Positions 14,501-62,094 of a stretch of DNA of 64,000 nucleotides are shown here, one piece after another. Source of the stretch: Struthio camelus (lineage: Eukaryota; Chordata; Aves; Struthioniformes; Struthionidae); assembly GCF_040807025.1 (NCBI RefSeq), contig NC_090952.1, positions 26,719,068 through 26,783,067 on the forward strand, in the 5' to 3' direction. Under the pieces are notes generated by a model. The model worked only from the letters and a program-made list of their open reading frames with translations. It had not been told where the DNA came from and did no database searches. Both the position numbers and the translations under genes were made by a program. Position 1 is the stretch's first letter. The number at the start of each line of letters is the position of its first letter.

Positions 14501-17500
14501 ATTTTGGGCACAATATATTTTCTTGTGGAGATGTACCTTGATAAGCAGCAGCAGGAAAACTCCCTGATGTTTGGATAACAGTAGAATACCGGTGCTGTCA
14601 TATAATTCATATAGTTTGCTTTTTACGTGATCTCTTGTGTCAAAGGGATTCCAGTGCCCAGGCTCCAGTCGAATCACTTCTCGTTTAAGCCAGCATAAGC
14701 CAAAGAGAGTTCTGGTGGGATGCGCTCCGGAAAGCGACTAACGCAGAACCACTTGGGCCAACAGCACCAAATTTCTCACACCTTCAGCATAAGCACTTCA
14801 TTCCTGATCTGTGATTCCTTGCTGGCAAAAGTAAGCTGCAAAAGTAGTTCTCATCGAAAAGAAAAGGACCCAGGAAATACCAAACCCTTTTACCTACAAA
14901 AGATGAAACCTAAGCTCTAGTCGACACCAAAAGGTTCTGGACTAAAACCAATAAAGGGCTAAGGTACAAGTTGTGGACTAAAACCAGAAGCGTCAGCCCG
15001 AAAGTCCTCCAGTCCTGGAGGAAAACTCCGTAGGTGCCTCGCGTTTCTGGTGCTGTGCCCGTGAGCACGTCCAGAGCTGTTTCGGTGAGGACAGGCCTGA
15101 GCAAGTCGGTGCCTCGGCTCCTCCACAGTCTCCAGGGCAGGTGTTGTTCAGCCTGGATTGCGGCAGCAGCACTGTCTGGCTAGTGGCCTCCGGCACACCC
15201 AACGCACCCTGACAAGCCTTTCACGACCCGCGACGACAGGCTCCGTAGATAAGGGAAGCCCTATTCCGGATCAGGTGTGCAAGACGGCTTTCAGTCCTGG
15301 TTTGTGTGTTCACAGTTCCTATTCAATTCAGGGGAATTTTGAGTGTAAAGAACGTCTTCTTTCCTGGCTATAGCACCGCGCTCTTCTCAAATCAGTTATT
15401 ACATAATTAGAGAACATGATCAGAATAGCAATGTTTAGAGAGCTGGAGGATTTTGCTAGGTGCTTTTATAACGTTACTATCAATGTTCCTGACCTCTTGC
15501 AACAAAGAGTTGTCAAACTAAGAAAGTCAAAATAACTCAGAACTTTGTTTTGTATTTAAACAAATAATTTAACAGAAGAAAAACATTTAATCATAATAAA
15601 GCACTTGAACGTATGTAAAGCTGACTAATAAGCATGCTTCCAAGTGCATTTATGGTGCAAAGTCATTAACACAAATTTTGGCACGTATTAACAGCTAATA
15701 AAACACATTCTGCTATGTCTTGTTAATCATGGCCTATCTTATTTAAGTAATTGCTTGAAATGTCTATCAAATTTGAGTTCAAATGAATTATCGTTCTATT
15801 TGACTCAATGGTTTGTAAACATAAATCCCTTTGAATGCCTTTATCTATCAAATTCCTTGCCAAAATGTATGCCCTATTGTATGTGCCGACATATAGTTAA
15901 TATATTAAAATATCCATAAATGAGAAGAATAGCAAAGGAAGAACATAGCAAAATAGTGGTGTCATGGAACTCAGCTCTTTGCTTGTCCTTTAAAAAAATC
16001 TTTATACATTGTTAAACACTTAAATTCAGTGGACTAACAAGGTAGCTACTCTTTACTCACAGGCATCACTAACTGCACATTATGAAAGGTAATGGAGAAT
16101 CAGCCTCTGTGAACACCAAATCAGTGCAAGATACAACTAGAGACAACAGTAAAATAGCGCATCTATTCTTCTGGTCGTTTACAACACATGAAGATGGGAG
16201 CTTAGAACCCCGTGGGACCTGAACATGGGACATTCATTGTAGTGAATGGTATCAGGAAGATTATCCTTAGCCACAGGGAGTTTCAGGCACATCTCTTCCT
16301 CCTTTTATCATTTAGTTTTCTCAATCCTATCTGAAGTTCTCAAGTATGAGCAGAAGGAAAAAAACCTCAGCTTTGAACTTCCTTAGGTTACTCAGAATGC
16401 TTAACTTTTCCTTACTGGCTAGTTCTCAGCCTTTCCTATGGAAAATCCTCATGTCAGCTCTAATAAATTGTGTGTGCCACCTGACATGGCTCTGGAAGGC
16501 ACCCACGTGACAAGCCCAGAAGTGAAAGCCCTTGTGTTATAGATGGAGGATGGTGTGCACAGGCAGAGGCAGAACGAGCTTCCTCCGAGCCTTGCATCCA
16601 TGGGCTCGTGTAGGGCGCAGGATGGTTTAGACACCTTCAGAGGCTGCTCTTGTCTACAGCAACCCAGAATCACTCACAATCCTTATCAGGTTGCTTTTGC
16701 TGGAATTTACTGGGGAACCCTTCATGAACCGCAATTTCTCTGTCTCTGTATCTACTGAAAGCCCAGTGACTCCAGGATTTCGAAGCAGAGACAATTCATG
16801 TCTCTGCGGTCACGTCCTGCTAGGAGGTGTGATTAACCTCTCCCACACATTTGGTCAACAATATGAGACAATACATGTGAGGAGAGAGCCAGTGGTGCAC
16901 ATCTCCCTATCTTCCTAAGGGCAACCTACAGCCTGCCATGGAAAGGAGGACAGAAAAGGCTCTGTAACACTGAAGTTGTCTACCTGTACAAACAAGCGAG
17001 TGAAGACTTCAGAGAGGCCATCTGCACATATTGTCCTTCTGCAGGCCAGGGGGAATTCATAGTGCTGTAGCATTAAAGCGCTGCCAAGTTTTACAGTATT
17101 CCCAAATCACATCTACTCTGAGGCATGGCTGCACGTGGTGTATGAAGAAATTAGATTGACGTGGTGCTCCAGAGTACATTTGCCAAAGGATCTTTTCATA
17201 AAGAAAGCCTTTAGTCCATCACTTTCTCTGCTGCAACCAAATTTGACTTATTCCTTTTAGTAAAGGTATAGTTTCTCTTCAAGTGTCCTTTAAGGTATCT
17301 GGGTCTACAGGACATCAAGTGGGTCATGAGACCCAGCTAAAACACATGGGCTTGGACATCATTTTAAAAAAGGTAATAGGATTCAAACTCTAGACCACTG
17401 CCCCCAGAAGACAAACCCCTGCTCTTTAAGATCAAGTACCAGTTTATCTCATCAAATATGAAAATGCAGGAAGTCTATCACATTTTCCATGCAAAGAAAG

Positions 17501-20500
17501 GACAAAACAAGTGGGACAGAAGATAAGAAAGTAGTAGGAATTATCTCATGAATCAGAGACTGGAAATAATGGCCATATTCTGAATGCCAGATAATCAGTA
17601 CTCTTCAAAGTGTCCCCCCAGCATTCTCTCACTTAATGGAATCATATGTTTCAGTCCCACAAATAAAAATCCATCATTTCACCATACCTAGTGCTCTCCA
17701 GATGAGACAGAAAATGACAGTGAAGCAGATATATGGCCAGTTCCACTCATGATTTTCTCCAATGGTGGAAACCCCAAGAAAGATGAAGATGAGCGTATCG
17801 CTAACACTGCTCCACATCTTCATGAAGTATTTGACTGTGGTGTGAGATTTCAGAGAGATGTTGGCCTCCACATAACGTTTCATGCCCATAGCACAAGCAA
17901 TGATGCTGAGAAAATGAAAATAAAACAATTACTTTTTCCGCATAAGCACACTAAATTGACACACTGTCCTTTAAAAGAATAAAAATAAAAGGCTTCACTG
18001 AGTGTTTTATGTTTGCAGACATCTCACTGGGTAGTGCCTTTCTTCCTACATCAGTCCATTAATATTGGTAAGACCACTAGGACAATAAGACGCTATATAG
18101 GTTGACCAAGTTGCCTGAATCTGTTTTTTAACAGATAAACAGCTCACAAGCTATTACATTTATCATAGTCGCTTAATTTAAAGTTAAGTACACCCAACAC
18201 TTCCCATTATAAGACTCTGTTTTTAGCTCTGTAACTTTGCCACACTCTAACCATCTGCGCAGAAGAGTTTTAGTCTTAGGATCTCACATTGTTTTTCTGG
18301 AGGTTTTTTTTTTTTTTTGGTCTGGATGGGAGGAAGACGTTTAAGGAGACAGGATACTATTGTTTCTCAATAGCAGGTAAAAAGGACACCTACAAGTCTG
18401 GTTGATTTCTGGTCACTACAGCAGATTTGGTGTAGTCTGAGAACAGCTTGAATGCTGCACTACCGCACGCGAGAGAGCAAAGCTAGCCTAAGTGGGACAA
18501 ACTCAAACATACACTGTATGTCACACTATATTTCTCAGCCCAGCTGGGGCTGTACTGACACTTTTTGGGCACGGCTAAGAAGTCATCCTGTCCAAGCAAC
18601 CAAAAGACAACTAAATGCTCAAGCAGTAGAAAGCCTGGTGCTCATCAGGCTGCACAACGAGCCAACAAACGGCTTCCAAGGGCACTGCCGTGCTTCTGAG
18701 GAAATTGGAGAGCGTCACTACAGTCAGAATATCTTATTTTCGCATGGATATCCAAGGTCACTTCAGAACTGTGTAGCACCAATTAAAACTTCTGCCCTGT
18801 AATTTTTCATGGATAATTGGTTCTTCAGGTTACAGGATACATGTGGTTAGCCTAATTCATCAGCTTTTCAAATCAATACAATTTCAGTATAGCAATCTTA
18901 GAAGGTCAAAACCATTTAGTGCTCAGAGAGTCAAAGCTCCATTTTTTAGCAGCAACATTTTGTTCTAAATGTTGAACCACCACTGGAAAAAGGAACTTGT
19001 TTCCGAGATCTGATTTCCATTGCTATTTGGTACATATTGCTCTTACACAAAAGGCCTGGCTTCCTCCTAATGCAGAACACCGCCAACCGAACCAAACCCC
19101 ACTGAATCCTCCAGCACTAAGCCAACATAGAACTGATGGGACAATAGGAGACTAGAGAGCTTCATGAAAAGGGAAGGCGCTGCAGAAGCTCCCTTGTTTA
19201 ACTACCTCCTCTTCCTTTCCACCATTTCCCTGGTTTTAGTTGGGTCATTTTTACAGTCTTTTTTGACTTTTGTTCATTTTCTTTAATACCTACTATAAGG
19301 GAAACCTCTGCCGAGTCTTGATAACTTGACAAAATTTGGGGGTTGGGATTTTTTTAAATTTGGGGGAGCCTTTTCCTCCGCTTCTAAACAGCAAGTATCA
19401 GCTGTGAAACTTCTGACAGGAAAGGAAGCTCATACATGCTCCTCCATTTTCACTATCAAAATGCAAGGCAGAATTCAAGCTCAAGTGCAGGGGGAATAAA
19501 GAACTTTCCTTGGACAGTATCAATTGTTCCAATTAAGCGGAACGTGTGTACGCCATAGACGAGATGCAATCTGCTGTATATTCACAACACAGTCTGAACA
19601 GCTCTCTGCGGAAAGGCAGCGAATGCTGTTTTCATTTTTCAGCTCAACTATTGAAACAAACCAGTCAAGGTCTCTGAGTCTTCACTGCCGAAAGGAGTTC
19701 TCAGCTAGTGGTGTTTTTGTAACCTGTATAAAACCAAAGACTCCTATTCTCTCCTCAACAACCCTTTATTTCAGTAAGACACAGTTGGCTGTTGCTCCTA
19801 ATTTGCGCTGTTGTTAACGAAAGCAGAATAAGGGCCGTTTTCTTTCTCCCTCATCAGTGAACCATTAACATATCTTCATTGCCATAACTCTACATATATT
19901 ATTGGACCAAGACAAAAGTAATGAACAACAGCTATGTTAACCTCTGCTCTATTTAAAGCACTAAGAAAACCAGTAATGTTATTATGGGAAATACATATTA
20001 GATGCTTGGCTGCAATAGCAAACAAGAAATAACCAGGAAAAAAATGACTGGAATAAAGATGCACTTCCACCCGATATGAACTACTGATTACTTGGCTAAA
20101 GTACAGGGAAAAAAACCAAAATGAAACAAAAACATTTCTATTTATTTTATCTGAAAATAATTGTTTTTCCCCATTGCCATAAAAAAAAATTATTTGGAGG
20201 GTAAAGTCCCTCTGCTACTAGGACCAGGAAAAAAATTCCAACACTACAAACATTTGCATGTAGAGCTCTTTAGCAGATTGGGTTGCACTCACAAATTTTC
20301 TTTTGGTCTATGCAAAACTGATTTCTTTTGGCAATTAAATTATTTTCTAAAGAAAGAGAACACCCAGATCTGCTTCTTATAATGCATTATCCCCTGGTGA
20401 CAAATGAATGAATTGTTTGAAATAAAGATATATAAAGAGGCATTTGGAACTTGGCAACTACAAGACCAGTAGTGCAGGAATCAGCTGCTTTTGCAACTGT

Positions 20501-23500
20501 TTTGCTTTGGAAACAATACATTATTCAAAAGACTATGGGTTCCATAATGGGTACAACAGATTATGATTGATAGAAGGAGACACCATTAAGATTGAATGTT
20601 TTCTTCTCCTTGACGATTATGCAGCATATTTATTTCACCATTCCGTCTGATGCTCTTATAAATAGATTTATCTCACCTATTCCCATAGCTAGAATTGTTT
20701 TCAGTAATGCTAAAATATTTCTCATATTAACCATTTGAGGAAACAAAATCTGCAAGATATAGGAATAGTTTATATCCAAAGGAGTAACACTATTTTTAAA
20801 ATAGATCTCCCAGATGCTCCTGAGTCTAGCTGGTATCTGACCATTTAATTTTTCATTTTCTTCATTATTATCAGATTTACAGTTGTTTACACGGTGGCTA
20901 TCAATGGAGTCTAACTGCACTTTGTAGTTTTTAGATTAAGTACTGCTGGTCTGTGATCCTCAGCACTATCTGACTTAGTTTAGGTAGGAGAACCAGATGC
21001 AACAGATATGAGCCCTCAGAAATCAGGACTGAATCACTCATGCTGTGTTTTTTATCCATCTCTTCTTTCCAAAGTGAGATTTCTTTGGCCATTAGGATTA
21101 TTAGATCTCCTTTTCTGGATTAAAGTAATTGTTCTGCAGGCAAAAATGTACATTGAGGTGAGTCCAAATCTCTCTTAAAATTGAAGAATCTGACCCATAA
21201 TTATTAATCTTGTTGAAAAACCTACTCAGCAAAAACAGAAAAAAATAAAGTGTATTGTCTACAAATTACAATTTGCAAAAGACTGATTTGACAGAATAAA
21301 AACGCTTTCTCTTCACTAACCCTGAAAATTACATAGGAATACATGACAGGGTAACTGATACAGTGTGGGACTCAGCTCTATGACATCTTGTATGTATTGT
21401 GCTTCTATGCCTTATTTGTACAAGAGCTTCACAAAGAAAACCTGTCAGTACTCGAAAGCATTTGTAAAATTGGAAGAAAGTATGCAACTCCCTGTGCTGT
21501 AATAAATTGCAAGCAGTCCTGTGCATGCTGGTGTTGTGAAGCCTGGTTTCCTACAGCTGTGTGTCTTGTAGCTGATAGACTTTGGGATCTGAGAGATCTT
21601 AGGCATGACTGCCTCTTCTCCCAAGAGGCAGGATTTATGCCAGCAGGCTCAGGTATGGTTTCTCTGCTGTCTAATAGCAAGTCAGCACACTTTGCAATTT
21701 TTCCCTCTGTCAGAGGGACGCTTCTGCCCACCATCCATTTTCACAAAAACGCGCAAGGATTTAGTACCTTTGATACTGTGACCTCTAACAAATTTGGCTG
21801 AAGCCGGTCAGCGGATTCAAACGTTACTGGAGATAGAGGGGTGATGAACAGGCACATGCAAACTGAGAACATAAAAATGCAACAGCCTCACTAGGAAACC
21901 AGACAAACACGTGATTTGAGGTTGTCTAAACCTCTTTTGACAGTAAGTCGGACTCTCCAAGATAAATCTCTAAAGCAAATGTTTTGATTAGACCTCTTCA
22001 CTCCCAAATAGAGGGAATGTTTTCAGCCTTCATCTTTGCACGGCATAAACAACTGCCTCTCCATCACTTACTTGTTCTATCATTGTACCTTCTGCCTTAG
22101 CACGCCTTTGAGGCCATCACCCTCCAACTAACTTGTAGGACAGACAAATCAGGAGGGTGTTAGAACAGACCTGCTATAAGTACAGACCATATCCAAAGTT
22201 TGCTGAGGTCCACAGTATTTGATCAATTGCTCCTTGCAGCTTTTCAAATGTTGGTTTTGAGGGGGCCTAATGAATTAAATAACAAAATATGCCTGGAAGC
22301 CTCTTCTGGTCCTGCTACAATCCAGTAGAAATTTCACTGTTTGAACTGCAGGGCTTACAAACAACAACAACAAAATAGAATTCATAAAACGTCCCACAAT
22401 AACCTGAATAAACTGATGAGGCACTTGACGCTTGAAGTGCTAGTCATCAGGATGGCTTATGATCTGCAGCTTTAGAATACCCAAGTTGTTTGAAGTCAAG
22501 CGCTTTAGCTTTCCCAGTCATGAAGCTAGATGCTATTCCAGAGCAGCATTGGGATCATTTCTTTGAGGTTTTCAGATCCACAGAACGTTTCTGTGCACTT
22601 GAAGAGTCCCTACTGCCACCAATCTGTGATTGTGTAACGTGTGGAATGAGGTTACATCCCTCAGCTATTTCAAAGGCTTTTAAACTCAATTCACTGTCAT
22701 ATAAGTGTTTTCAACTAAGCGCTCTTACTTTTCAGCAAATATAGCCAGAAAGCTTTCCTTGGCAAATGAGATTCGTGGAGATACTTACGCCACAATACCA
22801 GAAAGGTGAAACATTTCTGCAGTGAGATAGGAAAGATAACTGTACAGGAAGACAAACAGCGGTTCAATTACACGGATATTGTTGGTAAATCGTGTGGTAA
22901 AGGCAGCAATCATCCCAAAAGTAAGACCTACTAAAACTCCTCCTAGGCCAACCACAAAGAACTTTCCAACTCCAGCAAAAACATCCACAGTTTTGATGGC
23001 TGGCATTTCACAGAAAGATCTAAACAGCTTGTAGAGTACCTGGATGGAAAATAAAAAAGAAAGAGGAAAAACAGCCAGTAACAAGGCATTAACCAGGCAT
23101 GACCACACATAGCAGTAACCTTAAAATATACTACTGAAACTTCTAGCAGTTCAGAGATCTGTACTCTTCTCCAGAGAGCAGGTGCCTAACAGGTAAGTGC
23201 TGTAGCACTCAAATACATTTTTTATCTCTACACTTATGGGCTAGATCCTCAGCTCTATTGAAACTGAAGACAGTTGCTCACCCAAATGTTTTTTAGGGCC
23301 TGAGGTCAGACACCTGGCTGAGGAGTCCGGTGCTAGAAAAGGCCCTTTCCCTCTGCAGATTTCAAGTCCCACTTCTCAACATGAGACAATCCTTCCTCCG
23401 GATGCTAAATGCTGAAAATAAAAGCTAGTCCTTACCACTGTCACTGCATCGTTCAGGAGCGATTCACCAAAGACCAAAATGTGTAGCTTTTCATTGACGT

Positions 23501-25429
23501 GTATCTCTTCAAACACAGCTAACACTGCTACAGGATCCACAGCAGCTATCAGACTGCCAAACAAGAGGTTATGGAGCAACGATACATCCTGCAGGTGAAA
23601 AGATTTCACTTGGCAGATCCCATACAGTGAAAAGCCAATGCCAAACACGTTCCATATTGTTCCCACAACTGCATACAGGAGAATAGTGCCAATGTTCTCG
23701 AAAAAGGGACGGCTCGGCATGAAGTATCCTGCATCGAGGACAATAGGTGGCAGCAGGTAGAGGAAAAAGATATCACTGTCCATAACAGGTGGTGACTTGT
23801 CATTTAAGCCATAGATGATTCCACCCATAATGAGTCCTACAAATATCAATAAACAGCTTTCCGGTACAACAGAAGGCAGCTTGTTATAGAGATGAAACCC
23901 TGAAAACAGATCAAGAGAAATATTCCTTGTTATCTCCTCACCCCGGACTGGCTAAACAGCTGCAGTTCCTCATTTGGATGAGGAAACTTTCCATGCTGTG
24001 ACTTCCAGAAAGTTGCATTTTGGTATAAAAGTAACAATAAAGTCATAATAATAAATTATTTATTTTATTAATTATTATTATAAAGTAATAACAATAGCAA
24101 TAATAATAAATATGTAATGGTAATTATATATATATATATATATAATTAAAGCAATGTTACCCAAGAAGAAATTGAATAGAAAATTTTAAAGTTTGCTGAA
24201 AATACCAAACTTAAAAGTTACTATTGATTGACACCTCACAACATATAAACAAAGAACAATAAAATAAAACAACAGTAAAATACGTTTTATTTGACCTGGG
24301 CATGGTGGCCACTCACAATTCATATTAGCATTACATAAATATATACATACGTAGACCTTAAGTGCAAGAGAAAAATTCATCAAAAGCAAAAATATATTGG
24401 TCCTGTTTGCACAAAATATAATTTCTCGGATGTGGTTTCACAGATGACTTCCTTGGTGTAGACGGAGTTTTTATTTTAGGTTTTACAACACCTAGCATAC
24501 AGATTGAATTATTCCTCGTGACTACTCTGATTTGGCACTCTTCTTTAGGAGTGAGTAGACTTCATTTTAAGATGAGGATGTCAGTGGACAAACTGCATGC
24601 AACACAGCTGGCAAGATCATGATGATGAATATCTAGCTTAGTATGTACTACACAAATAAAACATTCCTTTCCCCCTTTCTTCTCCTGGAAGCCCTGTTGA
24701 TATTTGTAGCAAAAACTAACAGGCTGTGCAGATATAAACTTCCACATGGCAAACCAGCATTTCCAACCTAGAAAGCAACTGGACCAGAGTTTTCTTCCCT
24801 GTGTGCAGCCTATCTGACATACAATATGTGTGCCTTTAGGAGGTGGCATGCTACCTCAGACTCAGAGATCACCTATTTGGCTTGCATGCAAAACAGCTTT
24901 GAACTGTAAACACAAAACTGTGCTTTGTCCTTGTCTTTCTGGTCCTGCTAGTAGAGAGTATTTTAGGAAAGGATTCCTCTTCCCAGCCCCGCTCCTTTCC
25001 ACAACCCCAGGGATTTTGGAGAACAGGCAAAACAGAAGCTGCCTTTCCCTATACCATTTTGGGGAACTGGTGAAGCAAAGGCTGCCCTTCCCCACTCTGT
25101 CCCCACAGAGAACCTTCTCCTCCTCACCCTCTCAAGATTTTCGGTGCCTTACCTATTTTGGCCAAGGATGCAAGCATGATCCAGAGTGTGATTTCAAAGG
25201 GGACTTGGACATGCTGGTAATCCAGGGAGAAAAATGCATGCTCCAAGGATTCATTCCCCTGGGCTTCCTCAGCAGCCCAGCTGGTGTTCTCCTGGAGAAC
25301 ATCTTCCCCTAGTGACTGCGGCTGGGAGCCTTGGAGGGCTCTGACCCTCGCAACCTGGAGGAAGAACGTGAGCAAGGGCCCAACTAGGCGAGCGACTGCA
25401 GCCTTGCATCCCAGGCTCTGCCTCTCCAT
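2421..25429 (-). CDS. SLC9A2-like: Na+/H+ exchanger, NHE2-like (8 coding exons, 3' end outside window)
   Basis: Electroneutral exchanger of the SLC9A1-5 plasma-membrane group, moving Na+ in and H+ out. Coding exons on the minus strand are 25153-25429, 23436-23899, 22789-23039, 17688-17905, 12414-12610, 7041-7130, 3884-3954 and 2421-2585. Phases join without a break for 1733 nt (577 residues plus 2 nt). Seen: N-terminal hydrophobic segment, two N-glycosylation sequons (N48, N59), the amiloride-site type [14 protein letters not shown] (141-154), [12 protein letters not shown] (236-247) with the ion-site Asp D243, YGGLRGA (430-436) with R434, and [10 protein letters not shown] at the start of the tail. 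All splice sites are canonical GT-AG. Matches with NHE2 ([35 protein letters not shown]) are closer than with NHE4, NHE1 or NHE3. Later tail exons lie left of base 1. No disabling change is seen, so I infer a working gene. Exact orthology (SLC9A2 or an extra paralogue) is open. Confidence 0.93.
3884..3954 (-). CDS. SLC9A2-like: NHE2-like exon 7 (71 nt)
   Basis: Residues 500-522 plus two bases: [13 protein letters not shown] then [11 protein letters not shown], the conserved GIED-GH-G-WKDK block at the start of the regulatory tail. The length of 71 nt fits the family. Acceptor has a strong pyrimidine tract (CTCTCTTCTCTTTAG|TTC); donor GACAA|GTAAGG. Phase 2 matches exon 8. Confidence 0.94.
3955..7040. 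other. NHE2-like intron 6, nothing else seen
   Basis: AT-rich intronic sequence with short poly-T and poly-A runs. No further exon or recognisable repeat. Confidence 0.6.
7041..7130 (-). CDS. SLC9A2-like: NHE2-like exon 6 (membrane-tail junction)
   Basis: Thirty codons, residues 470-499: [16 protein letters not shown] then [13 protein letters not shown]. This matches the GITIRPLV...DVK block that ends the membrane domain. Acceptor ATGCTGCAG|GGAATG; donor ATTCGG|GTAAGT, phase 0. Confidence 0.93.
7131..12413. other. NHE2-like intron 5, nothing firm
   Basis: A 5.3 kb intron. A 137-codon open frame at 8431-8844 on the same strand has an ATG but no recognisable family; I do not call it. A poly-T run lies near 9380. 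Confidence 0.6.
12414..12610 (-). CDS. SLC9A2-like: NHE2-like exon 5 (GGLRG helix)
   Basis: Residues 404-469. Contains [19 protein letters not shown]434 matches NHE1 Arg440, a residue linked to pH sensing and transport. The loop after LLP is about two residues shorter than in mammalian NHE2 ([11 protein letters not shown]). Acceptor CTGCTTTTCAG|GGGT; donor GTACAG|GTAAAA. Confidence 0.95.
12611..22788. other. NHE2-like introns 4 and 3, nothing else seen
   Basis: Two introns of about 5 kb each, separated only by exon 4. Sequence is AT-rich with homopolymer runs. I see no RNA gene or mobile element. Confidence 0.55.
17688..17905 (-). CDS. SLC9A2-like: NHE2-like exon 4
   Basis: Residues 331-403 plus one base, with [33 protein letters not shown] and [11 protein letters not shown], all standard blocks of the NHE2/NHE4 branch. 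Acceptor TTTTCTCAG|CATC; donor GCACTAG|GTATGG. Confidence 0.95.
22789..23039 (-). CDS. SLC9A2-like: NHE2-like exon 3
   Basis: Residues 248-330 plus two bases, beginning [12 protein letters not shown]. Includes [29 protein letters not shown] and the NHE2-type [18 protein letters not shown]. Acceptor TTTTCCATCCAG|GTACTC; donor GTGGC|GTAAGT. Confidence 0.95.
23436..23899 (-). CDS. SLC9A2-like: NHE2-like exon 2 (core transport helices)
   Basis: Residues 93-247, the most conserved part. It starts after TTTTCAG with the codons for FHLYNKLP. It holds [30 protein letters not shown] and [13 protein letters not shown]243 lines up with the NHE1 ion-binding Asp267. Donor: ACAGTG|GTAAGG, phase 0. Confidence 0.96.
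24030..24150. repeat. AT-rich low complexity with (TA)10
   Basis: ATT/AAT-type trinucleotide-like sequence followed by a perfect (TA)10 run at 24125-24144, inside NHE2-like intron 1. A likely polymorphic microsatellite. Confidence 0.9.
25153..25429 (-). CDS. SLC9A2-like: NHE2-like exon 1 (start, N-terminal extracellular stretch, first helix)
   Basis: Residues 1-92 plus one base. Base 25429 starts the only in-frame ATG of the open frame; context is GGTGG ATG G, and the protein begins MERQSLG. A hydrophobic stretch (residues 11-27) may act as signal peptide or first helix. It is followed by a variable stretch with sequons N48-T-S and N59-E-S, then [17 protein letters not shown], the conserved lead-in of NHE2. 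Donor: AAAATAG|GTAAGG, phase 1. Confidence 0.93.
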
Positions 25430-29521: not shown

Positions 29522-29960
29522 AGGGCCACAAAGATGATGAAGGGACTGGAACACCTCTCATACGAGAGGAGGCTGAGACCCAGGACAGTTTAACCTGGAG
29601 AAGAGAAGGCTCATGGGAATCGAATGTGTATAAATATCTGATGGAAGGGTGTAAAGAGGAGAGGGCTAGACTCTTCTCAGTGGCGCCAGTGAAACGGGCA
29701 CAGTGAGGGGCAACGGGCACAGACTGAAACACAGGAAACGCCGCTTGAACATAGGCAAGCCCTTCTTTACTGTGAGGGTGGTTGAACACTGGAACAGGTT
29801 GCCCCGAGACGCAGCAGAGTCTCCATCCTTGGAGAGATGGAAAACAAAACCGGACACGGCTCTGGGGCAACCTGCGCTAGCTGACCCTGCTTTGAGCAGG
29901 GAGGTTGGACCAGGTGACCTCCAGAGGCCCCTTCCACCCCCAGCTATTCTGCGGTGGAAT
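29522..29960 (+). mobile_element. CR1 LINE fragment (3' end)
   Basis: Begins AGGGCCACAAAGATGATGAA and carries the standard CR1 3' blocks: CACCTCTCATACGAGAGG, TGTATAAATATCTGATGG, CTTCTTTACTGTGAGGGTGG, CACTGGAACAGGTTGCCC, and near the end CCTGCTTTGAGCAGGGAGGT and GACCTCCAGAGGCCCCTTCC. It ends near an ATTCTG-type terminus without poly-A, as CR1 does. It is 5' truncated and lacks an intact reverse transcriptase. CR1 is the dominant bird retroposon. Confidence 0.95.
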
Positions 29961-30722
29961 ACCACCCTAAACCTCTTTTTCTTTCCAAAGCAACTTCCTT
30001 AACTGCATCTGTGAGGTCCGCTTGGGAAGATGATTTATGCGTGGGATTTCCCGTTATCTGTTTTCCTCTCCATAGGGGCTGCTGGCACAGAGCATCTGCA
30101 TTAGCATGCTTGTCTGATGGCCAGTTATCTACAGAGCCCCAGTAAGTTACAAAAATCAAGGGCCATCTGCTACCAGCAGGGGCAAACCTACCTTTGGCTA
30201 CAGTAGTTTCACCTGTGGTTTTATGAGCTGTTGCAAGAATAGAAAGATGTTCAAATAAGCACTTGCGGTGTTCGCTAACATCAGAAAGGCCTAAGGCTTC
30301 TTTTCTGTCGGTCTCATCTCTCAATCCTTCAGATCATTCTGGAGCCGATCGCTACTGACCGTCATTTCCATTCACAGGGATGGAGGAAATGCCCCTCTTA
30401 ACTCTTGCAGAAGTGATGTCACAGGTTCGTTTTGGGGTAACGCAAAATGTTAAATGTTGCCAAGGATTACAGTTCTCTGCTGTTTTACTTCTTCCAACCT
30501 TATTTTCCCTCTCTCTTCAAAATCATATTTTTTAATGAAAGAAATCAGACATGGATTTCCTGATTAGCACCAAGAAATTTGGAAGGGGTCACATGATTTG
30601 AGTGCAATGTTGCCGGAGAATATTTAAGCTCAGAGACACTCCATCCATTCTCAGCAGCTTCTGTCTTTCTCTTACAAGTTTTCCTTCTGAACGTGTATGG
30701 TGTCCTAAATAAGGAACTTGAT

Positions 30723-39900: not shown

Positions 39901-42612
39901 ATTTGATTTCATTTTGTAAGACTAGTCTATAAGAGCACCTGGCAACATACAGCAGCAGAAAAGGTTTGCTATGTACTCTTGTCTTTGCCTGTCACTTGCA
40001 CCAGGAGGGAAAGATTCTTGTTTCGGTCACTCCAAACCATTCTCCCCTGTAGGAATGGATTCTTCTCGTTCCTGCCAACCACCAAACTGTAGCAATCTCA
40101 CTTTTCTCCTCTATACCTGTGAAAAGATCCATACTACCACAAAGCTACCATGGAAGAGTCCAGCTCAGATCCAACACTGTGTGCAGAAACAACATACAAA
40201 GATTGAAAGTTAGACATTCAGATGAGAAACAAAAAGCAAGAATAGGATTTTCAAAGGCAGTTGAAGGAAATGAATGCCCAATTTTCAATGGAATTCAAGA
40301 GAAGTGGAGCACTCATCTTCTTAGAGCTCCAAGCCCAATCCATGTAACAGCCAGAAAACACCTCAAAACCAGGGGTATTCACTCTGCTCAAACTGTAAAT
40401 TGGCTTGATGCTTAGATAGGCTTATTCATACCATCTATCGGATGGACAGCCTTGTCTGCCAACTACTTGGTGTTTTGTTTATTTTTGAGTTTTGAGCTTT
40501 GGTCTCCAGTTTGAATACACACACCATATTGAATTCACTTGCTTGCATTTGGATGTGTTAGACATTACATACACAAATTCATTGAGCCAGGCACGTTAGT
40601 TAAATTCCACTAGTCCTAGAATAGATTGAAAGGCATCAGAAAAGGCTACAATCTTAAGATATTTTGCAGTTTCCCTTCCGTTACACATGCTGCCATACCT
40701 AGTAGAACGTTTGACATCCCATAAAATGGCTGCACACAGTTGACAGTTGCATTATCCTGCAAGAGAAGCCCAATGCCACGTGCAAGCGGTGCGAGAGCAG
40801 TCTTTATGTAGGTATAGCTTGTTAAGGACCCAGTATGCTTTTATTCTGCAAACTTTCTTCTCTATACAGGGCAAAACAGGTACAATCTCAACTCTAAGCC
40901 TCATCATACCGCTTGAATTACAGTAAATATAACTAATTAAGCTAAATTACTGGAATTAAGAGCACCAAGGTGAATCCCTTGTGAAATTAGATCTTCTCAA
41001 TGTTCTGAGGCATTCTTTCAAGCCTATTGCTATTTTTGTTATACTTTTCAGCACTCACTGATGACTTTAAACAAAAAAACCACACACAACTAAAGATGCT
41101 AGATTTTAAAAAATGAAAAAATAAAGAAAAAAAACTCTTTGATCTCTTCAAAGGACCGATCAGATGTCAAGGGCCTTGATTTACAAACACAAGTATGTTT
41201 GCATCTGATGTATTATTACCCAGAGATCACACGATCCTTCATATTCTCTTAGAAGGCTGACAAAGATTTAAAAAAATGCATACTACACGTCAGAGTTTAC
41301 CAGATGTATCTCAAAGGCAGAGATAGTTTTGTTTTACACTAGTCGTTTCAAAGCAATTTTCACTGAGAAGTTCTTTGTAACTGGTCCCATACCTGTGCAT
41401 TGACTGGCATCACTAACTAACTAAAGTGATTTAACTAGCGCTATCGTACACATTTGGGAAGCTTAAAATTGTACAAGTATAGCTTTGTTGGCAGACTTTG
41501 GACTTGAATTTCATGATTACCAACCTAGAACTGCAGGTTTATCAAAACACAGTTAGTCGTAATAGAAGTGAGTGAAGAGGTTTGCTTACTTGCAGAAAAC
41601 TTCTGCTGTCGAGATAACAGCCTAGTTCATTTATCATTTTACAATGGCAATACAGTCATTGATTTCCAGTCAAAATACTGAGAAGTGACCAAAAGGGCAG
41701 AAAATATTTTTGAAGGTTAAACCAGCAAGTTTCCCAAGTTTCCCTAGTGAAATATGCATTTAAACTTCCAAATGAGGATGGAAAAAGCTTGCAATGTCTT
41801 TTCAGGAATGTTGCAATAGAGTCTTAGCTTCCTTAGGTTGTAAGAGATTCATTTCCAAGGAAATGAAGACAGAGTCCATTTACTAAAAATGCAAATGCTA
41901 CATGAAATAATGATATAATGACAGAAAGATAAGTGTATTTCATTGAAGAGGAAAGAATTTATTTAAAATAAAAACGTTTTTTAAAAACAGAAAATAAAAC
42001 AATCTCAATCAACTATTTCACCTGTTAGAAAATCACTAACTTTTCATTGTAATATACTTTACCTATGTAATACAAACATATATATGCAATAATATCACAG
42101 TCTCTTGAACGTCTTGATTGATGTTTAAGGCTGACATTTCCTATGCATCATACTATATACAAAATAATGCAGAGTTGTGAACATCTCTATCTGCTGACAA
42201 GATTTTAAAACCAAGGAAATATTCTCTCAGGCACTCTGAGCAAGCTTTGCAGAAGAATTTATTGGACTTTGAACCAGGCAATATAGTTGAAGCCCAAATG
42301 TTGGACATTAGAGTTCAAAGACAATTTGACTCTTTTCCTTACTGAGGGGATGGATTACTCTCTCAGATCATAGTTTTATCAGCACTTATGACTTGACTGA
42401 TTGCTCTTGCAGGAGTAAATCCAATGCTACATGAGAACAATTACTCATAGAGCCAGAGTCTTAGAAGCAGGGCTCACACCATTTAAAAATATGGTGGAAT
42501 AGCATTTTAGAGATAAGTTCATTTCTTATTCTGTATTAGAAAAGAGACAACAGCGACTTTTCTCTTCCTCTGGTAAGAGCATCATGGACAAGGTATGTTA
42601 AATGTTAAAATA
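30957..42612. other. Gene-poor spacer
   Basis: About 11.7 kb with no supported gene, RNA gene or recognisable repeat. Open frames here (for example 34294-34677 plus, 31124-31408 minus) have no family features. Distal poly-A signals for the TASL-like gene may lie at the right end. Confidence 0.55.
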
Positions 42613-42618
42613 TTTATT
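42613..42618 (-). terminator. Poly-A signal AATAAA of the TASL-like gene
   Basis: Minus-strand AATAAA about 100 nt past the TASL-like stop codon, a plausible proximal polyadenylation signal. Further copies lie near 42260 and 41960. Confidence 0.55.
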
Positions 42619-42720
42619 TGGAAAAGTCTGTAGTGTCTAACACTTTCATTTCCCAATCTAATCCTTACAGTGAAATACTTGTATCTGAATTGTATTCATC
42701 TCTCCAGCTGAGCAGTTCAG

Positions 42721-43641
42721 TTACGTGAAGTGTATTCTGCAGCTCTTTTCCATACATGCTGGGTTTGAGATCTGTAAGTTTGGAGTACTAAATTCAGAGC
42801 TATTTCCATTGGTAGCATTACGCAAACTAAACACAGCTAAAGAACGTAACAGCACCTCTCTGGCTTTAGATGTTTCTATATTCTGCTCCTGGGATATCTG
42901 AAAGCTTATCTGATCCAAGTTATTCCTTATCAAGCTGCAAGTCAGCAGGTTTGTTACAGAACCACATCTGGCCAAGTTTTCTTCAAAAAACTGTTTATAG
43001 AGCTCTGCCACTTTTCTTTCCATGTAGTTGTTGAGCATGGAGTTTGAAAGAGGCTCTTCAGAGAGCATCATACTCCTTTCTCCAGTTTCATCTCCAGGCA
43101 GGGACTTTATACCTGGCTTTTCAAGATACTCAGGTAGAGGGGATTGACCTAGAGGAATATCTACAGAGAGCAGAACAGGGCCATCAGGAAGTTCATCACA
43201 CACATGGTCCAAAACACAACCTGAATCACATGTATGGTCACCCACATGGTCTCCTCCAATATGTAAGTCAGGATAGTTTTGATAAATGCTGTTGCATGAC
43301 CAGGATCTATACAAATCCAGCTGTTCATTATTTTGTTCTCTTTTGGGAATATGTAAAGCTGGTGAGGTGGTTCCTCTAACAAGTACTTTCTGATCTTTTG
43401 CAGGTAACTCTTTTATGGATTTCCAGTGAGGGTCTCTCTTTTGTTCCATTTTGCCACTTTCAGCAGTGATCTTGTCCTGCTTCTCATGCCCAGCAGCAAA
43501 CTCTTTAATTTTTGGCTGGTCTACAAGTTTCTCTCTCCAGATTCCCTCCGTATCCTTTTTGGTTGCATGACATTTGTGAGGCTTATCTTCATCACAGGTT
43601 TCTTTATATACAAGTCCAGTTAAGATGCCTTCTGCCAACAT
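42721..43641 (-). CDS. TASL2: TASL-family adaptor (SLC15A4-binding, pLxIS motif), 306 aa
   Basis: TASL (CXorf21) binds the endolysosomal transporter SLC15A4 and recruits IRF5 for TLR7/8/9 signalling. Here the protein starts MLAEGILTGLVY, matching the start of TASL that docks into SLC15A4, which fixes the ATG at 43641. Next come a variable Lys-rich part, SIYQNYPDLHIGG (118-130), DGPVLLSVDIPLG (153-165), SNSMLNNYMERKVAELYKQF (199-218) and LDQISFQISQEQNIETSKAR (242-261), all conserved TASL blocks. Near the end TPNLQIS (286-292) is a pLxIS motif with Ser292 as likely phosphosite. Length is close to human TASL (about 300). The coding region is one exon with an acceptor just upstream. I favour TASL2 over TASL because SH3BGRL is the neighbour. 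The frame is intact. A His/Cys-rich insert (127-148) is unusual. Confidence 0.9.
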   Translation of the reverse strand: MLAEGILTGLVYKETCDEDKPHKCHATKKDTEGIWREKLVDQPKIKEFAAGHEKQDKITAESGKMEQKRDPHWKSIKELPAKDQKVLVRGTTSPALHIPKREQNNEQLDLYRSWSCNSIYQNYPDLHIGGDHVGDHTCDSGCVLDHVCDELPDGPVLLSVDIPLGQSPLPEYLEKPGIKSLPGDETGERSMMLSEEPLSNSMLNNYMERKVAELYKQFFEENLARCGSVTNLLTCSLIRNNLDQISFQISQEQNIETSKAREVLLRSLAVFSLRNATNGNSSEFSTPNLQISNPACMEKSCRIHFT

Positions 43642-43688
43642 GACAACCAGTGGTAGAAACAGTCTAATCACCAGACTGCCGTATAGAC
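43642..43688 (-). other. TASL2: 5' UTR part of the TASL-like coding exon
   Basis: A strong acceptor (CCTGTTTTTCTTTCACTCACAG) ends at 43689, so the exon should start at 43688, 47 nt before the ATG. The frame stays open upstream, but the TASL N-terminus begins at MLAEG. Upstream 5' UTR exons, as in human TASL, are not located. Confidence 0.75.
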
Positions 43689-45578
43689 CTGTGAGTGAAA
43701 GAAAAACAGGCAAAGTACCTCAAACTTATTTGGAAAAAAAGGAGTAAGAACAACAAATTAACAATGCATATTTCACGAAGACTGTCTGTAATTTTGCTTT
43801 TATTCTAGAATGTTTCTCTTCAGTAGACAGTAATTTGCTTGCTTTTCTAAAAATCTAATGTCTATATCTAGGTCAACAAAAATCTTCCTGAAGGTATAAG
43901 AAGGGCATTTACCAGGTTCTTCACCTCTAGTATCACCTTTACTCTTAGGCGACATAGATTATATGCATGAGCTGTTACACGGTAAGGATTAACATTATAT
44001 CAACAAGATAATTTCACTTTTTGTCTACATTGTATCATCAGTTGCAAATCACCTTTTTTCATTGAAAGACAACAATTTACTAGCTAAAGGCCTGATGCAG
44101 GAAGAGAGTCTGGATCAAAGTCAGACTTAGAAGTCAATTCTCGATAGGCCTGAGCTATCTTGTGAAGTGCCGAGAACCTTCAAACGATGCTGATAGTTCT
44201 TCATGTCTAATAAAACCGCATCCCAAATGCAGCACTTGAGCATTCACATATACAAAAGTTTTTAAGAGCCCCTCCTAATAATAATTTAAAAAGATATGAA
44301 TAGTTAATGTCTCCCCCAACCAGAGTTTAACAGCAGATAGTGTATGAGCAGTGTGCTTTCATCTTTTAGGCTCCACAGTTTTATTAAGTGCATATGAATA
44401 ATTAAAAGCTCGCCTACACGCCTCAAAATCTATTATGTTTTATCATTCCTTATCATTTATTTTTAATTCATCTACTGCTAAAATCAATGGGAATCTTTCC
44501 AGCTAAAGCTGTCTCTGGCTTAAATTCACTGAGGACAAGACCATACCACTCCTGTTGTGGAAGAATGGGAAAGAAGAACGCAAGGAAATCCTTCCGTGCT
44601 TCAAATATTTTTTTTCATCTCTGCAGATTTCAAGTACCTTCACACATCTCTTGTGCGTTCATGGTTTGAAACAGCAGAGAGGCAAAGAACGAGGCTGTCT
44701 TACTGAAGAGTATGTACTAAATCTCCTGAAGAACATAACATATTGGAATGCCTGTTGTACCCTTGCAAGAAATCCACTAAAAACTCTACTTACATCATGG
44801 ACACCTAAGGCTCAATTCTTTTCACGCTGCTGCCATTTCAAATCAGGAGTAATGTCATGCAAGTCACTGGATAGCTCTTCCACACAAACAAAACCTCTAC
44901 AAATGTAATATGATATCTGATATACAACTGGGAAGATTCTCCTCACCCTACTCATTTGCTTCTATCAGCAACCACACTACATAATCTATTTTATTTGATC
45001 TGCAATAGAACTTGATACACCGGGGCACTTTTTTAAATCCCAGTACTCCTTCCTGAAAGCTATGCTAAAACTCCAGCTACCTGATAGCGGGAAATCTACT
45101 TCCCTCCTAAATTTATGTACTGCCACAGTAAAACTGTTTGCTTCCCCCCCCACACACACTTTTTTAAAGCATAAATTGCACTCCCCCCACCCAGGTTGAT
45201 TGTAACACTGGAATTGTGATATGCTTGCAAGTGAGACTAAAGCAGACAGGAAAGGCAGCATACCATGCCTTCTCCTGGTCTCATTAGCATAACTGTTTAC
45301 TTTATCTACAGAACTATTTACATATGCAAAAAGCAGGGCAACGTTTTCTGAAGCACTTGAAGAGCTTCAGAGAGAAAGTGTCATTTTCAAAAGAGACAAG
45401 GACACTTAGAAGTCTAAATCTTGTTGAATGTCAATGGAATTTAGAATACTCCATGCCTAATTTACTTTTGAAAAACAGTATGCATGTACCCAGACTCTTA
45501 CATGCTTATAAAACTTAGCTATACTGCCCCGAAAATGCTCATAGTGCTAAAATAAGAGCTAAAACATGTTAACCCTAA

Positions 45579-45610
<32 letters not shown>
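45579..45610. repeat. (AAC)n microsatellite
   Basis: A perfect AAC/ACA trinucleotide run of 32 bases, nearly 11 units. Confidence 0.95.
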
Positions 45611-48314
45611 CTCTTTAAAATAAAGCAAGTGGTGCCCGCATTCCGGAACAAAACATAAGGAAAAAAGGGGGGGGAAAAAAAAGGACAGAAAGCCCAGACT
45701 TACCAATTCTAACAGGTAAGAGAGGTGGATAATCATGTAGCCTAGAATTCTGCTACTACAACTGCTGTAAGAGAATAGATTCTCCCATACTTCATTGTTG
45801 TCTGCCTGAACGATAACTGAAGCACACACCATTTAGTTCCTTGTTTTTAAAACAGAAGTGATCCCAGTGGAAAATTGTGTAGTTTTTGAGTACGGAGTGA
45901 CAGCAAATCTAAAAGAGGATGTTAAAAAAAAAAATGAATTGAGATGTTTGACTGTGGTGTAATGCTGACAAGTTGCGTAATTGCTACTTCACACGTCATT
46001 TAAAACAACAAAAAATTACTAAGTGATTGGACTGTCTGTACTTCATTAGACTGTTCAAAATTGAAACTGAACTCCACTGAACACTTCCATCTCTATAAAA
46101 GTTCAGTTTTGATACTATCATCCACCTGACTTACAGAGGCAATGTTATTTATATCATTTCCCCTTTTGAAACAAACAGCTCAACTTGTAGTCTCGTGACC
46201 TTCCTCCACTGGGGAAGAAACTGACATTATCAAGATATCAAGATCTTGCTTATCAAGATTTTGATGAAATCTCATGTCTTCATAAAGAATAAATATAAGA
46301 ATCTGCCTCTTGGAAGGCAACAGTCATCAGATAGCTGAAGACAGTCTCTTTGCTCACTGATCCAAGACACCTTCTCAGGGCTCAAAAATTACCTTTTTCT
46401 CAAAGGCATGTCACAGGTGCCTCCACGTTTTTCTTCTGTGTTTCCCTCCTCTAACCTGTGGCACAAATACAATCCACTCAGCTCTGTGCCCTGCACTTTT
46501 TTGTCATACCATGATATCAAATGATCGCTAAGTCATGGGCAATGTCCACAGTACATGTATACGTATACAAATAACTCATCACTGCAGAGAGCGTATACGT
46601 GGCAGGTGACACGAGGTCACTTTGCAAATGCAGAGTAGATCCAAAGCACCTGGCCTTACCTCTTTGGCACAATGCCTGTGAATCCCCTTCATATTAAATT
46701 CAGGTTCTGCCAGGGTCCAGGAAATGGACTTAAGATGGTACTGTCTTTAGGTAGCTCTCAAGCTTGCCCTGATGAACCAAGCATTCGGGCTGTGCCACTT
46801 ATTTTTTTTTCATCCATCCCAGCTATCTTAAGAAGAAGCAAGGGTTTGACAGTTCCTTCAGGAGGAAGAACAGCAGCTGTTTCTTCCATTTCACGTGTTT
46901 CATTGTCCAGAACTGCTGTAACAGGATATACAAATGGAATGACGTGCAGGGCAGAATATATAAAAGCATAAGGAAAAGTACAATAGTGGTTTATGAAAGG
47001 TAGAGCTAAGAACAGATCAAGCATTATCTGGAAGTAGGTCGTATTACCCCTGCATTTTTGCTGTTTACTAGCCATTAAAGCCAGAAATCAAAATGACTAC
47101 CTAGCAGAAGAACTGCTAAGGACAGAATTGCGGAGACCCTACTCCTGCGAGCTGCAGTCTGGATAACACGGCTCCCCTTGACTGCTACAAGATCCGGGAC
47201 CTTTACAGGAATCGTGTGAAGCCTGGCTACCCGTCCTGGTCAGAAGGCCAAGCTGTTGGCTAAGATGACCCTGTGAGTAAGGTCTGATCTTTCGGAAAGA
47301 GTCAACAGCAAATTTTCAAAGATGTGGCTTCCTCTGCAGATATTTCTGTTTTTATGGCTTTCTAGGCAAGTTAAAAGGCTAGATTATTTTTAAACGAAAG
47401 CCAAGTCTCATCTCTACCTCTATTTAACCTCCAAATTAGAAGCAAAATGCTGGCTGTTGATGTCCTGTTCAGTGCAAGCTGCCTAGCTGACAGGCAGACT
47501 TTCAAATTTGACTTTCAGACCTGTAAACAACCTCTATCCTTACTTATTTGCAAAGACAAATGATAGCAGTAATATCCAACTGTAGCACATATTAGATAAT
47601 TACTTAGATACTGAGATGCTCAAATATACTAAATTCTGTGGGCAGATTTGAGTGAAGATTTTGTAAGAGTTAATGTCTATCTAGCAATATTCTAGAATAT
47701 TCTATTCAAAGACAATCTTCCACACACCCATCTAGGGTGTGTGACACAAATTTGGGTTTGATCCCAAACAGATAGCTACAAAACAATGGTTTACCTTGAA
47801 TAGAACAGATTCTTCTCAGGAGACAATAGCTCCTTTCTCACCCATTATTACCCCATTTCCTGGAAAAAGCTTAGTTTCTGCCCAAAAGTGTAACTTTTTT
47901 AAGAAGACAAGTGAGAATTATACTATGGAATGCATGATTGCGTTCCTTGGCTTATAATAAAATATACTAAATATCCGGAAATGGAGACAATAAGGATTCA
48001 GTTGGTTTTCCTTCACTGCTAACTTTTCTCAGACTGTAATAACTAAAGACTTACAGACTCATAACTAAAGAGTTACTGCATTCTGACTAATAAAAATCAA
48101 GGACACAGTTAACATCTGCTTGATTTACAGCTAGAATCCAGACTTAAGACATTTTTTAACACATCTCACAATAATTCTTAAAATTTAGAGTTCTTCCAAA
48201 AAATATCACTATTTTTAGAAATATTTGGGAAAGGTTATTTTCTTTTTCCTATCCATCAGATAATTATTTATACCTGACTAAAAGTCTTAAAAAAAAACAA
48301 AAAAAATCAAAAAA

Positions 48315-51809: not shown

Positions 51810-52621
51810 ATGGCCTCCATCAAGGTCTATTACAGCAGCGTGACGGGGTCCCGGCAGGTGAGCGGCGGCCGGAGCCGGCCCCGGCCCCGGCCCCGGCCCC
51901 GGCCCCGGCAGGGGGGCCGCAGCGGCGGCGCCTCGGCTCGGTGCCGCTCTCTCTGAGCGCAGGTGCGGCAGCGGCAGGCGGCGGTCCGGCGGATCCTGGA
52001 CGTGAACCGGCTGCAGTACGAGCTGATCGACGTGTCGGCCGGCGAGGGGCGGCTGCGGGAGATGCGCGACAAGGCGGGCGACCCGCAGGCCGTGCCCCCG
52101 CAGATCTTCAACGGCGACGAGTACTGCGGGGTAAGTAAGGGCCGAGCGCCGCCGGCGGGCTCCCCTCGGCCTAAGGGAAAGCTGCACCTCGACCTGATGG
52201 CGAGGGGGATCAGGCCTCCCCCCCGCCCCGGCATCGAGCAGGAAGAGGGGGGCAGTTCACACCGCCCTCGGGCCGCGGGTTGCCGGCGCTGCCGTGCGCC
52301 TCCCAGCTAGGCCTTACTGGCTGTGGACTCGGCATCGCGGCGGCAAGCAGGTTCATTTGGCTTTAAGGCCGCGGTCGTGGTTGCGAACCGCTCGAGTTCT
52401 TTGCGTAAACAACAAAAATAACTTGCCCGATGTGCTGGGAAGGGACTCAAAGCGGGGCTGAAGTCCCGTGGGAACTACATTGCTCAATGACGTTGCTCGC
52501 TTTTCTGCTCGTTTTTAAGGATTTTGAGATGCTATACCAAGCAACTGAAAATGAAGAAGTGTCCAAGTTCCTGAAGATGACCTCGATAGACAAGCCTGCA
52601 CGAGAGGAGATTACTGTCTAA
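51810..52621 (+). CDS. SH3BGRL3-like thioredoxin-fold protein, 105 aa, 3 exons
   Basis: Small glutaredoxin/thioredoxin-fold protein of the SH3BGR family, which lacks the CxxC redox centre and acts as an adaptor or modulator. Exons: 51810-51857, 51963-52130, 52520-52621. Seen: start MASIKVYYSSVTGSRQ, then RILDVNRLQYELIDVS (26-41), LREMRDKAGDPQAVPPQIFN (47-66) and GDEYCGDFEMLYQA (67-80). It matches SH3BGRL3 (VTGSR, RILD--R-QY-L-D-S, EMR--AG-P-A-PPQI-NGD-YCGD) better than SH3BGRL. The G|D intron position after YCG is the same as in SH3BGRL. Unlike SH3BGRL3, it has a C-terminal extension of about 12 residues ending EEITV. Splice sites are canonical (CAG|GTGAGC, GGG|GTAAGT). Orthology to SH3BGRL3 itself is doubtful given the neighbourhood, so it may be a separate paralogue. 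Confidence 0.92.
51877..51906 (+). repeat. (GGCCCC)5 hexanucleotide in intron 1
   Basis: Five perfect GGCCCC units (GGGGCC on the minus strand), starting 19 bases after the exon 1 donor. Same unit as the repeat that expands in human C9orf72. Confidence 0.95.
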
Positions 52622-61200: not shown

Positions 61201-62094
61201 CTGATCATCATCCACCTTTAAAATTACGTCTCTGAGTGATATGTACAGTGTGACCTTCAACTCTTACATGAATAAAGTTGAAAGGAAATGGTGTGTTTAT
61301 CCATTGGGAAAAGAAAGCTGGGAGTGACCTGGTAGATCCTGCTGCATTCAAGTGAAACATCTAAAGCAGCCTTGTCTTATCCTGTCAAAATCCAACAGAG
61401 AATCCCAGTCCATTGCATCTGCGCAGCAGCAACTTGGTTTGCAAGTTGCAAAGGAAAAATAAAGCTTCAGAAAATAGGGTGGAGGAAAAAATTGCTTTCA
61501 AGTAAGTGACTCTGGTTTCAAGGTATTTTCCAATACAAAAGTCTCATCAAAATTTCATCTGAATCATTTTTTCCCCACTAAATTGAAAAATCTTTATTTT
61601 GTCACAATTTCTCTTCATCCAGATTTCTTGGACATTCTTCAGTGCACAAATTAACTACTCTTTCACTTGTTCCCAGGGTGTACAATATAAAAAAAAATCC
61701 AATAAAAAAAATCCAAAGTGGCTCTACAGTGAGAGTATCAAAGGAGCATCAGTCTTGAACACTGAGTTTTTCTGGCAGAAGGACAGGGAGGAACAGGGTC
61801 CAGGTAACAGAACATCCTCTAAATAAATGGGCACATAACAACGTATTGCAGCAGTGCTGAAGTCTGAAAGCTAAAGCCTCTGGAGCCCGAATATCGGACC
61901 AGCAGGTAGATTCATTGGGGCAACCACAAAACACAAAATACCCTACTGTAAGCAGGGAAGAAGAAGGTGTAAAATACAGGCGGTAGTTTAGTGTGAAAAA
62001 CGTATACACCTACCTTTGAACCAGGTGGCGCAGTCAAGCCTAAAAACGCATACACCGCGTTGTTCTCTCGGGCTTCAAAGAAAGCTTCATAATC
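58237..62094 (-). CDS. SH3BGRL: SH3BGRL, last two coding exons (5' part outside window)
   Basis: SH3-domain-binding glutamic-acid-rich-like protein, a small cytosolic thioredoxin-fold adaptor of about 114 residues. Exon 62014-62094 encodes [20 protein letters not shown] then TAPPGSK, nearly identical to mammalian SH3BGRL. Exon 58237-58269 encodes [10 protein letters not shown] and the stop. Both joins are phase 0 and canonical (CCGAAG|GATTAT, TCAAAG|GTAGGT, GTTTCAG|GAAGCT). The first two exons, with the N-terminal strand and PPQIFN motif, are not seen up to 64000 and should lie right of the window. The intron between the two exons (58270-62013) holds no other recognised feature. Confidence 0.95.
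62014..62094 (-). CDS. SH3BGRL: SH3BGRL exon 3
   Basis: Twenty-seven codons from the G|D boundary (DYEAFF) to PPGSK. One visible conservative change from the mammalian protein (DYD to DYE). Pyrimidine-rich acceptor CTTTTTCCCCTCCTTGTCCCC upstream. Confidence 0.96.

Follow-up and report, generated by a model that had tools for sequence, protein, structure and literature searches.

The results of this analysis suggest that a gene on the minus strand of the window, the 64,000-nucleotide stretch of bird DNA that was analysed, is probably the orthologue of mouse TASL2 (Gm6377), and that its product would act as an adaptor that docks on SLC15A4 and recruits IRF5, a function inferred from its relatives. 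The window corresponds to C11:26719068-26783067 of the genome assembly.

The coding sequence of this TASL2-like gene occupies 42721..43641 on the minus strand as a single open frame of 306 codons and a stop. When the frame was read from 43641 to 42721, the lone stop codon was the terminal one, giving a product of 306 aa, and the probability that one given frame would remain open over 306 codons is about 1.7e-9 at the local base composition. The ATG of the gene is the first in frame, as the frame stays open up to 43719 with no further in-frame ATG upstream. A likely splice acceptor, recognised by eye as a pyrimidine tract leading into CAG (43689..43705, minus strand), lets the predicted exon begin at 43688, 47 nt 5' of the ATG, and thus implies a non-coding exon upstream of the coding sequence. 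The first AATAAA poly(A)-like signal (42613..42618, minus strand) starts 103 nt past the stop codon. Judged from these signals, the layout fits a non-coding first exon followed by one coding exon. The repeats found at 40000-46000 were short two-copy families and short imperfect inverted pairs, all of which were taken as chance. Elsewhere in the window, the translation of 29666-30002 resembles by eye the end of a LINE reverse transcriptase, which we take to be of the CR1 type and which would suit a bird or another sauropsid. In addition, an open frame that resembles a LINE and spans 1005 codons lies at about C1:132006616-132009630 (minus strand), within the 200 kb around the canonical TASL gene described below; it possibly reflects recent activity of CR1-type elements, the family being assigned by eye.

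Residues 1-293 of the product matched positions 1-299 of the 300 in the Pfam TASL profile (PF15133) with an E value of 3.3e-106 and 355.8 bits, the Pfam cut-off being 27 bits. TASL was the only Pfam match of this protein up to an E value of 1, and the NCBIfam profiles gave no match to it. The 306-aa frame and the near-full-length match bear out the claim of an earlier note on this DNA that an intact TASL-type gene is present in a bird; the start MLAEGILTGL and the motif TPNLQIS, on which that claim was based, were also found, the former at residues 1-10 and the latter at exactly the residues given for it, 286-292. A conserved C-terminal region, residues 195-293 (42763..43059, minus strand), matched the solved TASL chain 9irc_B by phmmer (E 2.1e-17), and TPNLQIS (42766..42786, minus strand) lies within it and includes the pLxIS motif NLQIS at residues 288-292, the sole match to this pattern in the protein. 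Among 20000 randomised versions of the protein, 8.8% carried the pLxIS pattern by shuffling, and therefore the pattern by itself is weak evidence and the alignment register is what counts: TPNLQIS stands in register with TPSLHIS both in 9irc_B and in the second TASL-family protein of the same genome. A search of the PDB with the first 30 residues only gave no matches, no relatives of the gene were matched in a viral contig collection, and a scan of the genome contig collection for relatives gave 26 pattern matches, none of which was confirmed by tblastn.

The second gene was identified by a PF15133 profile search of the bird's own genome (1.45 Gb, 262 contigs), which gave two candidates, both of which match and are free of stops, one on contig C1 (E 7.0e-116) and the other in the window (E 1.6e-103); the same search found matches in none of 14 control genomes. 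The C1 gene (C1:131964591-131965460) encodes a protein of 295 aa, which starts MLSEGYLYRITYLCE, ends TPSLHISQYSNTNA and matches PF15133 over 1-300 with an E value of 1.4e-118. Its N-terminus, MLSEGYL, aligns with the start of 9irc_B, and the ISQYSN stretch is present after its pLxIS motif. In the C-terminal region, the C1 protein and 9irc_B are identical at 64 of 91 positions, as compared with 42 of 91 for the window protein and 9irc_B and 44 of 95 for the window protein and the C1 protein, and overall the two bird proteins share 96 of 269 residues (36%). Because the C1 protein is closer to 9irc_B than to the window protein, the paralogue split looks older than the split between the species of the C1 gene and that of 9irc_B. 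We take 9irc_B to be a mammalian TASL, in which case these identities make the paralogue split look older than the bird-mammal split. On the same assumption about 9irc_B, the sequences would identify the C1 gene as the orthologue of TASL and the window gene as a second paralogue of long standing. TASL2 is the closest reading of the latter, since the genome has a TASL-like gene apart from it. Two other assignments were rejected, that of the window gene as the bird's TASL, to which the C1 gene is a far better fit (64 against 42 of 91 residues shared with 9irc_B), and that of a recent bird duplicate, on the identities among the C1 protein, 9irc_B and the window protein. The guess of a TASL2 branch in the earlier note fits both the separate TASL on C1 and the SH3BGRL gene nearby, but the canonical TASL had been missed; with that gene also present, "the" TASL of the bird is not the gene in the window.

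Mouse TASL2 was compared with the bird proteins via two short fragments, EALLHSL and ISNQASRE, translated from Gm6377 oligonucleotides in print (a guide in PMC11759703 and two primers in PMC10703706). In register with the C-terminal end, EALLHSL matches the window protein at 5 of 7 residues versus 0 of 7 for C1 TASL, and ISNQASRE at 5 of 8 versus 2 of 8. The two fragments together, one of which has an alternative placement, thus give 10 of 15 for the window protein versus 2 of 15 for C1 TASL in the in-register reading, and 0 of 100000 joint shuffles of both fragments reached 10 in-register matches. With the spacing of the window gene, this placement would give a primer product of about 110 nt and place the 3' guide where the coding sequence ends, which agrees with the stated deletion of the entire Gm6377 coding sequence in the mouse (PMC11759703). 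A second placement of ISNQASRE is at the conserved DQIS region around residue 245, where its BLOSUM62 score is 19 versus 20 in register for the window protein, and 24 versus 8 for C1 TASL. Placed at the DQIS block it lends no support to TASL2, and the in-register reading is a choice. In a looser control, in which oligonucleotides drawn from elsewhere in the window were compared in six frames with the window protein, at least 5 identities anywhere were reached by 1.2% of 4000 random 22-mers and by 3.7% of random 26-mers. The second published Gm6377 guide had no clear placement on the window protein. Overall, the Gm6377 fragments appear to give the TASL2 identity moderate support at the sequence level. 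It is conceivable, if improbable, that the gene is instead a younger, fast-diverging TASL duplicate found in birds or reptiles only and unrelated to mouse TASL2; the fragment with the alternative placement, at which it is silent on TASL2, would allow this, but the in-register matches of the mouse fragments favour the window protein over C1 TASL, the two bird proteins share just 96 of 269 residues, and the C1 protein is nearer to the PDB TASL than to the window protein.

The neighbouring genes were also considered. A tblastn search with E. coli GlpK located glycerol kinase exons in a collinear row on C1, on the minus strand and some 40-62 kb ahead of TASL, and human TASL presumably adjoins GK. 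The gene that we read as TASL2 is separated by about 18 kb from an exon of SH3BGRL (62014..62094, minus strand), in which 26 of 27 residues are identical to the PDB SH3BGRL chain 1u6t_A, and we take mouse Gm6377 to be located next to Sh3bgrl. The strongest of 20 matches in a POU-domain search of the genome, at C11:26392690, is about 0.37 Mb from the window gene and was read as POU3F4 by position alone. A human Xq21.1 deletion includes both SH3BGRL and POU3F4 (PMC4593198). A table of allele-specific expression in chicken, in which the cell type is DC, annotates chr4:9301316 as "CXorf21, SH3BGRL", the one of the two genes that is meant being unstated (PMC11779831). Literature that places Gm6377 by Sh3bgrl, Hmgn5 or Pou3f4 was not found among the matches listed, and the available parts of PMC5726758 and PMC7727198 do not say where Gm6377 or CXorf21 maps. 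The window contains other genes as well. An SH3BGRL3-like gene of three exons and 105 aa (51810-52621, plus strand) is situated in GC-rich DNA roughly 10 kb away from the SH3BGRL exon, and its exon 2 has PDB SH3BGRL3 as its best match (E 2.7e-15). Exons of a CPA1-type sodium/hydrogen exchanger lie at 12393-23951 on the minus strand; the piece at 23379-23951 matched NHE1 (E 9.5e-63) and NHE3 (E 1.5e-56) in the PDB and TIGR00840 (E 3e-79), that at 22788-23120 matched PF00999, and a putative exon near 12.6 kb was recognised by eye and had no Pfam match. The gene set of the human Xq21.1 deletion, as given in the available part of PMC4593198, includes no such exchanger.

The N-terminal ten residues of the window protein, MLAEGILTGL (43612..43641, minus strand), correspond to the end of TASL that docks on SLC15A4, a role that has been published for TASL (PMC10502012, PMC10589346). 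The window protein begins with MLAEGILTGLVY, and M1, L2, E4, G5, L7 and Y12 are common to it and to C1 TASL, whereas Ala3, Ile6 and Thr15 stand in place of Ser3, Tyr6 and Glu15 of TASL. It has been reported that residues 1-13 of chicken TASL suffice for binding to chicken PHT1, that Glu4 is essential, its change abolishing binding, and that residues added before Met1 lower or abolish binding (PMC10502012). The chicken TASL used in that work has Ser3, Glu4, Tyr12 and Glu15, as does the C1 gene, while the window gene has Ala3 and Thr15, and the published bird binding data therefore, as far as these residues tell, were probably obtained with a TASL of the C1 type. Human TASL tolerated S3A, and its binding and signalling were weakened by Y6A (PMC10589346). 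Mouse TASL2 bound mouse SLC15A4 and did not bind human SLC15A4 (PMC11759703), which means that SLC15A4 binding is not transferable between species. Because Ala3 and Ile6 fall at the published interface, SLC15A4 binding equal to that of TASL is not to be assumed for the window protein. Given Ile6 in the window gene and the mouse-only binding of mouse TASL2, a shifted SLC15A4 interface in TASL2 is plausible.

These substitutions bear on two further explanations. The gene could encode an intact but altered adaptor that does not dock on SLC15A4 in the manner of TASL and serves as a decoy, as a regulator or as a feeder of IRF7. The change from Tyr6 to Ile affects a contact that is important in human TASL (PMC10589346), chicken STING requires its pLxIS region for the activation of IRF7 (PMC7157566), and a pLxIS mutant of TASL2 appeared to be dominant negative in mouse cells (PMC11759703), all of which would suit such a role. 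Nevertheless, we regard it as quite unlikely, in that M1, L2, E4, G5, L7 and Y12 are kept, including the Glu4 whose change abolished binding (PMC10502012), LQIS is intact, and IRF5 is encoded in the genome. Least credible, and very improbable in our estimation, is a fast-evolving bird TASL (CXorf21) orthologue without any involvement of TASL2, for although one Pfam model covers both genes and the chicken chr4 gene is named CXorf21 (PMC11779831), it is the C1 gene that is better matched to the PDB TASL, that has the MLSEGYL start, the ISQYSN stretch after the motif and glycerol kinase nearby, and that shares Ser3, Glu4, Tyr12 and Glu15 with chicken TASL (PMC10502012).

The candidate partners of a TASL2 adaptor were found in the genome. 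A PF00854 search gave 13 exon matches on four contigs, including SLC15A4 on C17, exon 1 of which shares 179 of 194 aligned residues with chicken PHT1 and keeps R44, Y48, Y82, K180 and K192. So close a match to the chicken protein speaks for a bird genome. A later SLC15A4 exon keeps the positions Y485, M497, F500 and F501 in chicken numbering. Glu473, which is also needed for binding in chicken PHT1, lies in an exon other than these two. A PF10401 search gave 12 exon matches, of which that at the IRF5 locus, C1:1495710, matches the PDB IRF5 chain 3dsh_A with an E value of 4.7e-66, and that at C5:16048202 looks by eye like IRF7. A weak match to the IRF-3 domain was also seen in a GC-rich stretch at C29:565926-566105 (E 8.1e-4), where the flanking translation is repetitive; this could represent a divergent IRF or have arisen by chance. 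Birds have been described as having TLR21 in place of TLR9 and as lacking IRF3 (review, PMC7157566).

As a bird TASL2, the window protein would insert its extreme N-terminus, folded as a helix, into the cavity that SLC15A4 (PHT1) opens to the cytosol on endolysosomes, and most of the remaining protein would be a flexible tether. Stimulation of endosomal TLRs (TLR7 and, in birds, plausibly TLR21) would lead to phosphorylation of Ser292 of the pLxIS motif, and phospho-Ser292 would then recruit IRF5, which would be activated. The protein would work alongside the canonical TASL from C1 and be partly redundant with it, as in the mouse. The expression, docking, phosphorylation, choice of IRF, upstream receptor and redundancy of the window gene are all what we infer for it. 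An extension of this reading, which we hold to be unlikely, is that birds, in contrast to humans, run two SLC15A4-docked adaptors and that TASL2, with its Ala3 and Ile6, would be specialised for CpG-DNA, serving the path from TLR21 to IRF5. TASL2 deficiency in the mouse seemed to weigh more heavily on TLR9 than on TLR7 responses (PMC11759703), and avian TLR21 is the functional counterpart of TLR9 (PMC7157566). If this were true, adaptor choice would follow the ligand and not receptor ancestry, because TLR21 replaces TLR9 functionally with little sequence similarity to it.

TASL2 was named in a 2025 paper on the mouse, where it was reported to be absent from the human genome, to substitute for TASL in the activation of IRF5 and to have orthologues in other vertebrates (PMC11759703). 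Binding of chicken TASL to chicken SLC15A4 has also been published already, in a study that used one TASL (PMC10502012). The gene in the window was thus largely to be expected given the published mouse TASL2 and its vertebrate orthologues; a study of TASL2 in a bird was not found among the literature matches listed, as far as their available text goes. That a bird carries both TASL2 and TASL in intact form suggests that the two genes already existed before the bird and mammal lineages separated and that humans, with TASL alone, have lost TASL2. With a second adaptor, knocking out only one of the two in bird cells might have a weak effect, as in the mouse. Furthermore, chicken expression data under the name "TASL" or "CXorf21" have to be attributed to one or the other gene. 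For instance, chicken "CXorf21" (ENSGALG00000016286) was reported to rise strongly, at 717.7 versus 7.6 FPKM, in macrophages infected with ALV-J for 3 h, a value that is unassignable to either paralogue (PMC6404279). The same applies to "TASL" in chicken macrophages exposed to Salmonella, for which values of 7.5 to 30 are given with unlabelled second numbers of 0.06 to 0.6, none of which would be below 0.05 if they are p-values (PMC9111174), and to CXORF21 as tabulated among the genes of a qPCR panel for chicken immunity (PMC6890255). PMC7386301 concerns mammals, and in the available text of an Eimeria paper (PMC13397759) TASL is named in a reference only.

Among known systems, mouse TASL2 (Gm6377) is the closest to the window gene, as both are second TASL paralogues that have a docking end at the N-terminus as well as a pLxIS motif (PMC11759703). 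The function of mouse TASL2 was established by knockout and co-precipitation and the gene is X-linked (PMC11759703), whereas the bird gene lies on contig C11 near SH3BGRL. TASL itself (CXorf21; chicken A0A1L1RS25 and the C1 gene) shares with the window gene the full-length PF15133 match, the DQIS block and the LxIS end, but its tail after the motif is QYSNTNA as compared with NPACMEKSCRIHFT in the window protein, and its neighbour is glycerol kinase instead of SH3BGRL. STING, MAVS and TRIF also have an LxIS motif, which in their case is phosphorylated and recruits an IRF (PMC10589346). However, no sequence relationship was seen between these proteins and the window protein, for which TASL was the sole Pfam match up to an E value of 1, and, in contrast to them, its expected membrane anchor would be SLC15A4 instead of a membrane segment within the protein itself.
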